This document shows, piece by piece, positions 274-10,885 of a stretch of 12,172 nucleotides of DNA. The position numbers and the translations under genes are program-made. Every line of letters begins with the position of its first letter. Position 1 is the stretch's first letter. Below the pieces are notes generated by a model. That model did no database searches. It worked only from the letters and a program-made list of their open reading frames with translations, and was not told the origin of the DNA. Origin of the DNA: an uncultured Bacilli bacterium (GTDB taxonomy: Bacteria; Bacillota_I; Bacilli_A; RF39; UBA660); contig CALVSV010000087.1 of the NCBI GenBank assembly GCA_944359595.1, positions 1 to 12,172 on the forward strand. Direction: 5' to 3'.

Positions 274-714
274 TCATCCCTTATAATTTATACTATAAAA
301 ATTTAGTTCGTTATCATATTCACCATAATATATTGTTGTTTTTAATACTTTATTATTTATATTTATATTAATGCTATTATATTTATTAGTATTTGTTAAT
401 TTTTTATTATCATATACTATATTTTTATTAACAATCTTTAATTCTTTTGATGTAGTAGAATTTGCATCAGTTGTGTAAAATATGAACTTACAAGTATTAG
501 AATTACATTCAGCACTCTTAATATTATATTTATATAAATCTTGTCCTATTTTAGTATATATATTATTATTTTCATTTCTTTCTTTTTGTGTTTCATATAA
601 TATATCATTCTTATTAATAATTGCATTAACTATTACAAATATATTTATTAATATAACAGTTGTTAGTGTTACACTAATTACTGTTTCTAATAATGCTATC
701 CCTTTATTATTCAT
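274..714 (-). CDS. Type IV pilin-like (pseudopilin) protein
   Basis: 146 residues. The N-terminus is a recognisable prepilin peptidase site: leader M-N-N-K-G, then I-A-L-L-E, with Glu at mature position 5, followed by a hydrophobic helix of about 20 residues. This is class III signal architecture, normally cut and N-methylated by a prepilin peptidase and assembled from the membrane. The rest is Asn/Lys-rich, with a close cysteine pair (C-x4-C) near residues 69-74 that could form a disulfide. It resembles ComGD/ComGF-type minor pseudopilins in size and layout, but I cannot assign one. Its start overlaps the end of the upstream pilin gene by 8 bases, which suggests translational coupling; GGAGAG supplies the ribosome site. 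It ends in TGA. Confidence 0.72.
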   Translation of the reverse strand: MNNKGIALLETVISVTLTTVILINIFVIVNAIINKNDILYETQKERNENNNIYTKIGQDLYKYNIKSAECNSNTCKFIFYTTDANSTTSKELKIVNKNIVYDNKKLTNTNKYNSINININNKVLKTTIYYGEYDNELNFYSINYKG

Positions 715-1180
715 TTGCGACTCTCCATATTTTTATTGATGCAAATTTATCATTATTAAAATATCCTAATAATCTATATTTATCTTCATATTTCTTTGTA
801 TATTCGTAATAGTCATCAAAGTCATCATCAAACGCATAAGAAGTAGTGTAGTTACATATATATAATTGTGTTGCGCCAACTTCGTTTTTTATAGTATTAT
901 ATTCATTAGTTAATTCATTTATATTATAACTTACATTATTTAGTGATACACAACCTTTGTCTGATGTTTGATCAATTAAATCATTAAGATCAGAAGATGA
1001 TCTATATAAAAACAGCCTAATATTAGCGATCTTATAAATATCTTCTAAGTTATCATACTTTTTATATTTATTTTGATTATCGATAAAAGTAGTACTAAAT
1101 ATATAAAAAGTAATAATTAACACTAACATAATTGCAGAAGAAACTAACGTTTCAGCAAAAACAAATCCTCTACTATCCAT
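707..1180 (-). CDS. Type IV pilin-like (pseudopilin) protein, first gene of cassette
   Basis: 157 residues from the ATG at 1180. An upstream ATG at 1189 directly abuts the AAGG ribosome site and cannot use it, whereas 1180 has 9-base spacing. The N-terminus carries the prepilin motif: leader M-D-S-R-G, then F-V-F-A-E, with Glu at mature position 5, and a hydrophobic helix to about residue 28. The remainder is an acidic, Tyr-rich soluble domain with two cysteines. It is the promoter-proximal gene of a three-gene operon of pilin-like proteins. No assembly ATPase, platform protein or prepilin peptidase is in the window, so these must be encoded elsewhere if the system works. Possible roles are DNA uptake, adhesion or secretion; the sequence does not decide. 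Confidence 0.72.
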   Translation of the reverse strand: MDSRGFVFAETLVSSAIMLVLIITFYIFSTTFIDNQNKYKKYDNLEDIYKIANIRLFLYRSSSDLNDLIDQTSDKGCVSLNNVSYNINELTNEYNTIKNEVGATQLYICNYTTSYAFDDDFDDYYEYTKKYEDKYRLLGYFNNDKFASIKIWRVANE

Positions 1181-1203
1181 TTGAATCATCCTTATCTAGT
1201 ATA

Positions 1204-2864: not shown

Positions 2865-2876
2865 TATCGTATCTTT
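2837..2876. terminator. Bidirectional terminator between convergent genes
   Basis: Arms 2837-2852 and 2861-2876 pair over 16 positions with one mismatch and one G-U. The core is the perfect CGATATCAC/GTGATATCG, and the loop is AAAGCAAA. The flanks are T-rich in both directions (CTTTATTTT on +, CTCTTTTTG on minus). The stem holds the TGA stop of the + strand membrane protein, and its right arm overlaps the cotJC stop codon. Confidence 0.82.
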
Positions 2877-3435
2877 ATTTTATACCTTTATTTTTATAAT
2901 AGTCGTATAATTCTTTAAATCTAGTAAAATGTACTATTTCTCTTTGTCTTAAGAAATTAAGAGGTGCAAGTACATCAGGATCATCAGTTAAATCTATTAA
3001 ATTTTCATATACAGCTCTTGCTTTTTCCTCTGCAGCCATATCCTCAGAAAGATTAGCTAAAGGATCACCCACTGATGAAAAATAAGTAACAGTAAATGGT
3101 ACACCACTTGGATTTACTGGATACAAATCATTACCATGTTCTGCATAAAAATCTGCCATTCCTTCTTTTTTTATTTCTTCGATGGACGCACCTTCCATCA
3201 ATTGATATATAATAGAATCCATTATTTCAACATGACCAATTTCTTCAGTAGCAATATCAGTTAATAAATTTTTACCTTTTTCATCGGGCATCGTATATCG
3301 TTGATTTAAATATCTTAATGCAGCAGCAAGTTCTGAATTACCTCCACCATATTGTGCCATCATAAGTTTTGCTAGTTTTAAATTTTTATTTTTAATATTT
3401 ACTGGATATTGTAATTTTTTTTCATAAGCCCACAT
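2875..3435 (-). CDS. cotJC: Spore coat protein CotJC, manganese-catalase family
   Basis: 186 residues, matching the usual CotJC length (about 190). It starts M-W-A-Y-E-K-K-L-Q-Y-P, a typical CotJC opening. It is a ferritin-like four-helix protein related to manganese catalase; the expected metal-ligand helices are visible: S-E-L-A-A-A-L-R-Y-L, A-T-E-E-I-G-H-V-E, A-A-E-E-K-A-R-A and R-E-I-V-H-F. In Bacillus subtilis, CotJC is an inner coat protein made in the mother cell with CotJA and CotJB. Whether it has catalase activity here cannot be told from sequence. The gene begins one base after the stop of the CotJA-CotJB fusion, with GAGGGGGT as ribosome site inside the upstream gene's last codons, so the two are co-translated. 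Confidence 0.93.
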   Translation of the reverse strand: MWAYEKKLQYPVNIKNKNLKLAKLMMAQYGGGNSELAAALRYLNQRYTMPDEKGKNLLTDIATEEIGHVEIMDSIIYQLMEGASIEEIKKEGMADFYAEHGNDLYPVNPSGVPFTVTYFSSVGDPLANLSEDMAAEEKARAVYENLIDLTDDPDVLAPLNFLRQREIVHFTRFKELYDYYKNKGIK

Positions 3436-3436
3436 A

Positions 3437-3976
3437 TTAATACCCCCTCATCCATGGAGCTGTTACATCATTCCAAGCCCATGGATTTTTATTAAGACCT
3501 TTACTTTTTAAAGTAATAGGACCATATGTTTTTTCATATTCGTTAACTAGCATGTTCTTCTTATTTAGAATTTCATTATATTTATTTATCATACATGAAT
3601 TATCAGGATGTACATCTAAAAATAAATCTATATCCTTTAGAGCGAAGCCCAATTCGCTAATTTGAAGCATTAATGCTTCTCCTTCACTGCTAGCTTTAAT
3701 TTTTTGTGGTTTATAATTTTTATAAGGACTATATAATTCTGGAAACATATTTCCTTTTAAAAAGCCTTCATAAGTAGAGTATAACCCACAATCATTGTTT
3801 ATATTATTTTGCATATTTGGTTTTAACCCGATAAAATTTTGAATATCCATCATATCATTAAAATTATTCGGAACCATTTGTTGTCTTAAATATTCATCAT
3901 ATATAACATTTTCTTCTCCAGCTACAGGATAAATGTTAGATGAATTATTTAAATACTCATAATATTTATTATTCAT
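3437..3976 (-). CDS. Fused spore coat protein CotJA-CotJB
   Basis: 179 residues from the ATG at 3976, which has GGAGGGG just upstream; a longer in-frame start at 3994 has no ribosome site. Residues 63-87 carry the CotJA signature (C-G-L then K-G-N-M-F-P-E-L-Y-S-P-Y). Residues 101-179 match CotJB: the helix with D-L-F-L-D-V-H-P-D, then Y-E-K-T-Y-G-P and the Trp-rich end N-P-W-A-W followed by A-P-W. In B. subtilis these are two separate proteins of about 80-90 residues from the cotJABC operon. Here one reading frame contains both, preceded by about 60 residues that I do not recognise. With cotJC immediately behind, the operon is cotJ-like with two genes instead of three. It probably acts in spore coat assembly around the forespore. 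Confidence 0.83.
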   Translation of the reverse strand: MNNKYYEYLNNSSNIYPVAGEENVIYDEYLRQQMVPNNFNDMMDIQNFIGLKPNMQNNINNDCGLYSTYEGFLKGNMFPELYSPYKNYKPQKIKASSEGEALMLQISELGFALKDIDLFLDVHPDNSCMINKYNEILNKKNMLVNEYEKTYGPITLKSKGLNKNPWAWNDVTAPWMRGY

Positions 3977-4064
3977 TAATTTTCCCCTCCACACTTTATA
4001 ATATTAATTTAGGAAATATGTGTATAGACAAAAGTCATGGGTTAAAATTAATTTATAAAATTTA

Positions 4065-5568: not shown

Positions 5569-6111
5569 ATGCAAGAAAGAACCTTGCCTCACAGTCTAGA
5601 AGCAGAACAATCAGTAATAGGTTCTATGTTTATTTCAAAATATGCAGTAAATAGAGCAGTTGAGGAATTATATCCAGAAATGTTTTATTTAGATAGTAAT
5701 GCAAAAATATTTGAAGTATTAAAAGAGCTTGCTGATGATAAAAAACCTATTGATATAATGACAGTAACCGATAAACTTGAAAGTAAAAAATATTTAGATA
5801 AAATTGGCGGAATAGAATATATTACAGCGGTAGTTAATTCTGTACCATCTGCTGTTAATATAGATTCATATATAGAAATAGTAAGAGATAAATCAATACT
5901 TAGAAAACTTATTGATGTATCAACACAGATTGCTACAGAAAGTTATGACGCAAAAGAAAGTACTAATGAAATATTAGATGAAGCCGAGAAAAAAATTTTT
6001 AGTGTAGTTAAAAATCGTAAGGGTGGAGAATTTAAATCTATTAGTCAAGTTGTTAATAAAGCACAAATGATGCTTGAAGATTTAGCTAAAAATGGTGGAA
6101 ATATTACATGA
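5569..6111 (+). CDS. dnaB: Replicative DNA helicase DnaB, N-terminal part ending at an in-frame UGA
   Basis: Start ATG at 5569 behind AGTAGGTGAT; a longer frame to 5512 overlaps rplI and is not used. These 180 codons encode the DnaB N-terminal helical domain (from L-P-H-S-L-E-A-E-Q-S-V-I-G-S-M to about residue 105, including G-G-I-E-Y-I) and the linker helix that docks on the neighbouring subunit. The frame stops at TGA (6109-6111), where the family has Gly in I-T-G-x-x-T-G-[FY]. Ignoring that codon, the same frame runs on to 6927, giving 452 residues against about 454 for the B. subtilis protein DnaC. So the gene is complete apart from one codon. On its own this fragment would lack the ATPase and could not act as a helicase. 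Confidence 0.9.
   Translation: MQERTLPHSLEAEQSVIGSMFISKYAVNRAVEELYPEMFYLDSNAKIFEVLKELADDKKPIDIMTVTDKLESKKYLDKIGGIEYITAVVNSVPSAVNIDSYIEIVRDKSILRKLIDVSTQIATESYDAKESTNEILDEAEKKIFSVVKNRKGGEFKSISQVVNKAQMMLEDLAKNGGNIT
6109..6111 (+). other. In-frame UGA codon inside dnaB at a conserved Gly position
   Basis: Codon 181 of the 5569 frame. Upstream context reads G-G-N-I-T and downstream L-A-T-G-Y-T, matching the DnaB segment I-T-G-x-x-T-G-[FY]. One base change (GGA to TGA) explains it. The base after the stop is C, the context generally associated with weaker termination, whereas all four genes in the window that end in TGA are followed by T. Confidence 0.9.
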
Positions 6112-6927
6112 CTTGCTACTGGATATACTGCTTTATATAATTTAACTACCGGATTGCATGGTGGAGAATTTATTGTTATTGCTGCGCGTCCTGCTATGGG
6201 TAAAACAGCGTTTGCTCTTAATTTAGCTGCTAATATTGCTATGAATTCTGGAAAAACAGTAGCGTTATTTAATCTTGAAATGAGTGCAGAACAACTTGCT
6301 ATGCGTATGATATCATATGTTGGACAAGTTGAAGGTAATAAAATACGTACAGGAAACTTTGAAAATGAAGATTGGGCAGCAATTGGAGAAGCAGTCGCAT
6401 CTTTAGCAGATTCAAAAATGTATATAGATGATACTCCAGGAGCGACTGTTGGTGATATAAGAGCTAAATGTAGAAGACTTGCAGCAAGTGATGATGGATT
6501 AGGTATAGTAATAATTGACTACTTACAATTACTTAGTGGATCTAATAGATATGTTAACAATAGACAAATGGAAGTATCTGAAATATCGAGATTATTAAAA
6601 ACTTTAGCGTTGGAACTTGATGTGCCAGTTATTGCCCTTGCGCAACTATCTCGTGCAGTTGAACAAAGAGATGATAAAAGACCTATGATGAGTGATTTAA
6701 GGGAATCTGGGTCTATCGAACAAGATGCTGATATTGTTGGTTTCTTATATAGAGATGATTATTATAATAAGAAGGCTGCAATTGATCCGAATGTTAGTTT
6801 AAGTGAACTTATTATTGCTAAACACCGTAATGGTTCAACTGATACGATAAATTTGTTGTTTAAAAGAAATATGTCTACCTTTGCTGATTATGAGAAGAAA
6901 ATAGAAGAGGATGATATTGATGTATAA
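6112..6927 (+). CDS. dnaB: Replicative DNA helicase DnaB, C-terminal ATPase part
   Basis: Same frame as the N-terminal part, directly after the UGA. If translated separately, the first usable codon is TTG at 6154, but no Shine-Dalgarno sequence precedes it, so independent initiation looks weak. It holds the RecA-like hexameric helicase core: Walker A A-R-P-A-M-G-K-T (about codons 206-213), Walker B V-I-I-D-Y-L-Q-L-L (Asp near codon 317), the L-R-E-S-G-S-I-E-Q-D-A-D motif and the C-terminal K-H-R-N-G-S-T. DnaB unwinds DNA at the fork and recruits primase. The position before L-T-T-G, usually Asp or Asn (T-x-L-D), is Tyr here, also explicable by one G-to-T change. All catalytic motifs are otherwise intact, so selection has kept this half. 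Confidence 0.9.
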   Translation, partial: LATGYTALYNLTTGLHGGEFIVIAARPAMGKTAFALNLAANIAMNSGKTVALFNLEMSAEQLAMRMISYVGQVEGNKIRTGNFENEDWAAIGEAVASLADSKMYIDDTPGATVGDIRAKCRRLAASDDGLGIVIIDYLQLLSGSNRYVNNRQMEVSEISRLLKTLALELDVPVIALAQLSRAVEQRDDKRPMMSDLRESGSIEQDADIVGFLYRDDYYNKKAAIDPNVSLSELIIAKHRNGSTDTINLLFKRNMSTFADYEKKIEEDDIDV

Positions 6928-9651: not shown

Positions 9652-9861
9652 ATGAGCACTGGACTACTTACCAAACGTGAAAAAGAAGTATTTAATTTAC
9701 TTATAAATAATATGAGTACAAAAGATATCGCTAAAAGTTTAGGTATTAGTGAAAAAACTGTTAGAAATCATATTTCTAATACAATGCAAAAATTAGGTGT
9801 TAAGGGAAGAGCACAAGCTGTAATCGAATTATTAAGATTAAAAGAAATATCTATTGATTAA
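9652..9861 (+). CDS. gerE: GerE, LuxR-type late sporulation regulator
   Basis: 69 residues from the ATG at 9652, which has AAAGG (9638-9642) 9 bases upstream; the ATG at 9643 (72 residues) has GAGG 5 bases upstream and is also possible. The whole protein is a LuxR/GerE helix-turn-helix: L-T-K-R-E-K-E-V-F, T-K-D-I-A-K-S-L-G-I-S, the recognition helix E-K-T-V-R-N-H-I-S-N, then M-Q-K-L-G-V-K-G-R-A-Q-A-V. This run is nearly identical to B. subtilis GerE (74 residues), which has no receiver domain and regulates coat genes in the mother cell after sigma-K becomes active. It stands alone between rlmH and gerM, with a sigma-K-like promoter and its own terminator. A small CCTC-ttat-GAGG hairpin (9626-9637) could mask part of the ribosome site. 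Confidence 0.93.
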   Translation: MSTGLLTKREKEVFNLLINNMSTKDIAKSLGISEKTVRNHISNTMQKLGVKGRAQAVIELLRLKEISID

Positions 9862-9895
9862 AAGGATTGCATTAATATGTAATCTTTTTCATTTT
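9860..9895 (+). terminator. Intrinsic terminator of gerE
   Basis: 13-pair stem with two G-U pairs (9860-9872 with 9877-9889), 4-base loop TAAT, and a T-rich tail. It begins within the gerE stop codon and separates gerE from gerM. Confidence 0.75.
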
Positions 9896-9916
9896 TATAT
9901 ATTTTATGCATACATA
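9889..9916 (+). promoter_or_regulatory. Possible sigma-E-type promoter of gerM
   Basis: CATACATA (9909-9916) is close to the sigma-E -10 consensus CATACAnT, and TCATTTT (9889-9895) lies about 13 bases upstream, near the sigma-E -35 form TCATA. gerM belongs to the early mother-cell programme in B. subtilis. The -35 match is weak and the site overlaps the end of the gerE terminator. Confidence 0.35.
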
Positions 9917-9934
9917 TTATTAGAGGTGAAATTC

Positions 9935-10885
9935 ATGCTAAAAAGAATTTCTATAAGAAAATTATCTATTTCTTGTTTTACACTCATAGTATTATTACTT
10001 ATGTATATGATACCTAATGATATTAAAGACTTAAATGTTAAAACGAGTGAAGAATATGTAAGTATTGATGAAAGTAATTTAAGTGATATATTCTTACTTG
10101 ATAATGATGAATATATAGCTATGACTAATATTGTTATAAGTGGTGATGATATTTGTTCTAAAGCAAGAGATTTATTAGAAGCACTTATAATAGATGGAGA
10201 AAAACAAGATATAATCCCCAATGGATTTAAACCTATTATACCAACTGGAACTACTATAAATGATGTAAATTATGATAATGGAGTATTAAAAGTTGATTTT
10301 TCAAAAGATATATTGGAAATAAACGAAAAATATGAAGAAAAAATGATAGAGGCAATATGTTATACATTAACGAGTATTAAGGACGTTAAAAATATATTAA
10401 TATATGTAGATGGCAATTTATTAGTAAAATTACCAAAGAGCGGTAAATATTTGCCAGATATATTAGATAGAAATTATGGTATTAATAAAGAAGTTAATAT
10501 AAGTAATTATAAAAATGTTATGGATATAACTTTATATTATACTAAAGTATATAAAGATAGTTATTATTATGTACCTGTTACAAAGTATGTAAATAGTGAT
10601 AAAGACAAAGTCAAAATTATTATAGATGAATTATCTAGTGCACCTACATATGAAGAAAATTTGATGAGCTTTTTAGATTCTAATACTAAATTATTGAATT
10701 ATAATATAGATAATAAAGTATTAAGTTTAGAGTTCAATGAATATGTAATAGAAGATATGAATACTATGGGAATTAGTGAAGAAGTAAAAGAAGCTATTTC
10801 ATATTCTATGAAAGATAACTTAGATATTGATGAAATAATATTTATGTTTAATAACAAAGAAATAACAAAAACTGAATATAAATAA
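9935..10885 (+). CDS. gerM: GerM, tandem GerMN-domain sporulation protein
   Basis: 316 residues from the ATG at 9935, chosen for GAGGTGA 5 bases upstream; the longer frame to 9854 overlaps gerE and its terminator. An N-terminal hydrophobic segment (about 10-27) suggests a membrane anchor or signal peptide. Two GerMN repeats follow: about 60-165 (with P-T-G-T-T-I-N-D-V, G-V-L-K-V-D-F-S and I-L-I-Y-V-D-G) and about 196-310 (opening D-I-T-L-Y-Y, with K-V-L-S-L-E-F-N). GerM is needed for spore cortex formation and germination in B. subtilis and acts in the space between mother cell and forespore. The B. subtilis protein is a lipoprotein; here the one early Cys does not sit in a clear lipobox. gerE and gerM are also close in B. 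subtilis. Confidence 0.87.
   Translation: MLKRISIRKLSISCFTLIVLLLMYMIPNDIKDLNVKTSEEYVSIDESNLSDIFLLDNDEYIAMTNIVISGDDICSKARDLLEALIIDGEKQDIIPNGFKPIIPTGTTINDVNYDNGVLKVDFSKDILEINEKYEEKMIEAICYTLTSIKDVKNILIYVDGNLLVKLPKSGKYLPDILDRNYGINKEVNISNYKNVMDITLYYTKVYKDSYYYVPVTKYVNSDKDKVKIIIDELSSAPTYEENLMSFLDSNTKLLNYNIDNKVLSLEFNEYVIEDMNTMGISEEVKEAISYSMKDNLDIDEIIFMFNNKEITKTEYK

Follow-up and report, generated by a model that had tools for sequence, protein, structure and literature searches.

In the genetic code of the Gracilibacteria and Absconditabacteria (table 25), UGA is read as glycine. The excerpted text of PMC8629427 ties this code to a tRNA-Gly(UCA) and describes UGA as a stop codon in Bacilli of the GTDB order RF39. 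Read-through of UGA has been tied, in the excerpt of PMC13092985, to a tRNA-Trp with an anticodon stem of four base pairs. Another system in which an in-frame UGA followed by C lies in an otherwise intact gene is the programmed +1 frameshift of prfB, with the context CUU UGA C. The dnaB gene described here resembles the table 25 code in that a UGA is present where relatives have Gly, but this concerns a single site, and the Bacilli-type genome has RF2, uses TGA as a stop and has yielded no UCA tRNA. It resembles prfB in the UGA-C within an intact gene, but its two halves share one frame, so that a shift would be of no help, and it lacks the CUU slippery codon. With consensus errors in metagenome-assembled genomes it shares isolated nonsense and missense differences that lie close together, are private to one contig and fall on invariant residues, and an intact near-identical copy elsewhere; the cause proposed here comes from sequence comparison and not from reads. 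The dnaB TGA very probably does not reflect real biology.

The window, by which we mean the whole stretch of 12,172 nucleotides that was analysed, comes from a genome assembly that totals 1.19 Mb on 166 contigs, is 92 % complete and has 24 % GC. It carries the gene of the replicative DNA helicase, dnaB, at 5569..6927 on the plus strand, on which all dnaB features given below are located. Upon translation, the gene shows a single internal stop, the TGA of codon 181 (6109..6111), and its terminal TAA. The N-terminal piece of 180 codons ahead of the stop (5569..6108; protein P0121 in the protein search) matches PF00772 (DnaB N, E 5.7e-32). The C-terminal piece of 271 codons (6112..6924; P0001) contains a complete RecA-like domain and matches PF03796 (DnaB_C, E 1.4e-102) and TIGR00665. 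As the match to DnaB_C begins at profile position 2, the stop is located at the domain junction. The pieces are in the same frame and comprise 452 codons when the stop codon is counted, in agreement with the original prediction of two intact halves of normal joint length. A genome-wide search showed that dnaB is present in a single copy. The gene is essential, and a cell with only the stop-bearing allele should not survive.

The base following the internal TGA is a C, a context that is linked with weaker termination. The four window genes ending in TGA all have a T at this position, as had been noticed before. A larger sample combined the window with 53 other stretches to a total of 426,737 bases (36 % of the genome), and in these 427 kb a C follows 3 of the 27 TGA stops counted, that of dnaB included. 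The UGA-C context is thus uncommon, not unique, in this genome. The window contains no tRNA genes, and a search for RNA families across it gave one sub-threshold match only.

Elsewhere in the window, a CotJB gene with an adjoining gene that presumably encodes CotJC is present at 2875-3994 on the minus strand and a gene with a Germane domain at 9854-10885 on the plus strand, which places spore-type genes in a genome of 1.2 Mb. Two small frames at 274-1189 (minus strand) have prepilin-like N-termini and no Pfam match. A prepilin-like frame (PF07963) was also seen on contig C51 (L141, 13042-13110), where the apparent natural start after AGGAG is ATA, not ATG.

Codon 181 is Gly in all of 109 aligned related loci and a stop in none of them. 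These loci comprise 29 from a genome search and the best 80 of 581 from named contigs, so that the same genome is possibly counted twice. The stop is therefore not shared with relatives, contrary to what would be expected of a conserved recoding event. The suspicion that the UGA sits at a conserved Gly and that a nearby Tyr has replaced Asp or Asn proved well founded: codon 190 (6136..6138), which is Tyr (TAT) in the window, is Asp in 108 of the 109 loci and Asn in the remaining one. In an alignment of close proteins (48 candidate rows, P0002-P0049, of which two partial ones were omitted), both positions are invariant in 46/46 proteins other than the near-identical copy discussed below; 133 of the first 278 columns are invariant in this alignment. 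A dnaB match was obtained in 57 of 59 relatives, in G009 only weakly; in a separate search, the DnaB_C matches of the other two were partial or weak. Two relatives at class level, G038 and G050, each have one TGA within dnaB, at another codon which, judged by eye, faces a Trp in the window. A TAG in the dnaB of relative G021 was rejected as an interruption, since L013 shows it to be the stop codon at which that gene terminates. P0050 (243 residues) and P0100 (242 residues), two related C-terminal DnaB proteins, start at the Met of Walker A and may be fragments cut off at contig edges or products of other interrupted genes.

A search of 5.8 billion proteins with the N-terminal piece returned, next to its own 180-residue protein, P0122, a protein of 278 amino acids encoded on a contig of 3338 bases and known from the protein alone. 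P0122 agrees with the window in 276 of its 278 residues and differs only at codons 181 and 190, which are Gly and Asp, respectively, in this protein. Both window-only residues are on invariant columns, at a distance of 27 bases from each other. At other positions of this stretch where the window is unusual compared with relatives, such as 113, 120, 194, 221, and 250, P0122 has the same residue. These are thus true features of the species to which both sequences belong, and 181 and 190 alone are private to the window. The window's version of dnaB has one member on one contig (12172 bases) for the N half and was likewise found once for the C half; in the C-terminal search, the next relative was 90 % identical and unbroken, with 452 residues. 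An exact stretch of 23 bases across the stop had no matches in viral contigs. Other copies of the neighbouring DHH gene are found on two contigs, neither longer than 3787 bases, and differ from the window at one residue in 328. This difference, at codon 85, where the window has ATA and P0241 has Met, is of another base type and falls on a variable column. Because of it, the other copies, P0122 as well as those of the DHH gene, may belong to another strain.

A sieve for split genes was applied to the sample, and 8 of 1173 neighbouring same-frame pairs passed. In the control relative G023, 9 of 946 pairs passed; the sieve thus discriminates poorly and its count by itself proves nothing. A closer look at some of the passing pairs showed that three genes besides dnaB seem broken. 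A C-5 cytosine methylase on contig C17 (L137, 1181-2194) is interrupted by a TAA that falls between positions 22 and 24 of the profile, and apparently by two frame changes further on. On contig C54 (L181, 17463-18425, minus strand), three same-frame pieces without a Pfam match, which we take to resemble a HipA-like kinase, are separated by a TAG and a TGA. An amidase-like piece and a peptidoglycan-binding piece in one frame on contig C152 (L149, 9516-10031, minus strand) have a TAA between them. The occurrence of all three kinds of stop in these accessory-type genes suggests decay or errors rather than a changed meaning of UGA. A further candidate, at position 5825 of L146, was discarded as it is antisense to a frame of 437 residues.

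A suppressor or recoding tRNA that decoded the UGA as an amino acid would give a full-length DnaB, and the intact frame on both sides of the stop fits such a reading, as does the following C, since an identical UGA-C occurs in the genome's own prfB. In that gene (contig C88; start at position 816 of L136), CTT TGA C is present in frame at 888-894 with GGAGG ahead of it, which we take to be the classical programmed +1 frameshift site of release factor 2. Such a site is meaningful only where UGA acts as a stop that is decoded slowly, however, and RF1 and RF2 are both present in the genome, with prfB scoring 493.6 bits against TIGR00020 (cut-off 370), so that RF2 has not been lost as in code 25. 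TGA closes 27 of the 250 long coding frames in the 427 kb, and a codon-score sieve combined with inspection by eye recognised no further TGA in place of a known Gly in this sample, whereas in code 25 UGA is found at many Gly sites and is not a stop. None of 23 tRNA matches in the genome (22 called by ARAGORN and one truncated at a contig edge, with anticodon GTC by eye) has the anticodon UCA. As neither Gly nor His tRNAs were found among them, the tRNA set of this 92 % complete genome is incomplete, and an altered Gly tRNA could be encoded in the missing portion. The anticodon stem of tRNA-Trp(CCA), UUGGU/ACCAA, has five pairs in the minimum-energy fold, unlike the four-pair read-through type, while the centroid drops the outer pair. 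SelA had no match in the genome, and the six matches to tRNA-Sec were all sub-threshold and at ordinary tRNA genes, which gives no indication of selenocysteine insertion. The TGA in one of the accessory genes is a second in-frame UGA that would suit recoding, but TAA and TAG interrupt these genes too, and P0122 has its Gly without needing any recoding. The view of the original prediction that general recoding is unlikely is upheld, and decoding of this UGA appears very improbable. Still more improbable is that the strain truly carries the UGA in its only dnaB and that a tRNA from the portion missing in the assembly reads it, at least partly, as an amino acid, the UGA-C acting as a brake on helicase supply. 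The position of the stop at the junction of two Pfam domains would also suit a two-chain DnaB, with the N domain and the RecA-like motor on separate polypeptides. The first possible restart past the stop is a TTG at 6154..6156 and the first ATG is at 6196..6198, inside Walker A (PAMGKT). In the 20 bases preceding either codon, no Shine-Dalgarno-like stretch is present at the usual spacing, whereas such purine-rich stretches precede dnaB, rpsF, and ssb. As the protein is, moreover, unbroken in relatives and in P0122, a two-chain helicase is hardly credible.

The options originally put forward for the UGA thus fared differently: the Gly and Asp of P0122 speak for an assembly error or a strain-specific lesion, while read-through or suppression and a helicase of two chains found no support. 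A true private lesion would mean that some cells carry the stop, together with the Tyr, and that the assembler took this allele; such cells would be dying or would draw their DnaB from another source, located in the part of the genome that is missing. The completeness of 92 % leaves room for such a source, P0122 may come from another strain in view of the DHH difference, and the three interrupted accessory-type genes of the sample, two of them interrupted more than once, look like decaying genes. Against this, dnaB is essential and single-copy, and two changes at invariant residues only 27 bases apart would have arisen with no other residue difference in 278, which makes a private lesion unlikely. 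We consider it highly probable that the TGA, and most likely also the Tyr codon 190, are consensus errors of the assembled contig. A G/T difference could account for either private codon, and the two lie within one read length of each other. According to the excerpted text of PMC12390751, such differences belong to the known artefacts of oxidised DNA. A consensus error explains two close private changes of the G/T type at invariant residues of an essential gene as well as the intact copy. Some observations argue against it: codon 181 is covered by one independent copy alone, as a protein that may be from another strain, as may the DHH copies with their residue difference, and dnaB is the sole gene of an essential kind seen broken in the sampled 36 % of the genome. 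A generally error-ridden assembly is not supported by the sample.

In conclusion, the two deviant bases of the window would stem from a faulty read or a faulty assembly path rather than from living cells, and the dnaB of the cell would be an ordinary, unbroken gene for a helicase of 452 residues. A genuine stop would make this a remarkable instance of read-through in a replication gene that is essential. A fault of one base in an assembled genome can mimic recoding or a split essential enzyme, and a near-identical second copy in protein collections can expose such faults when the reads are out of reach.
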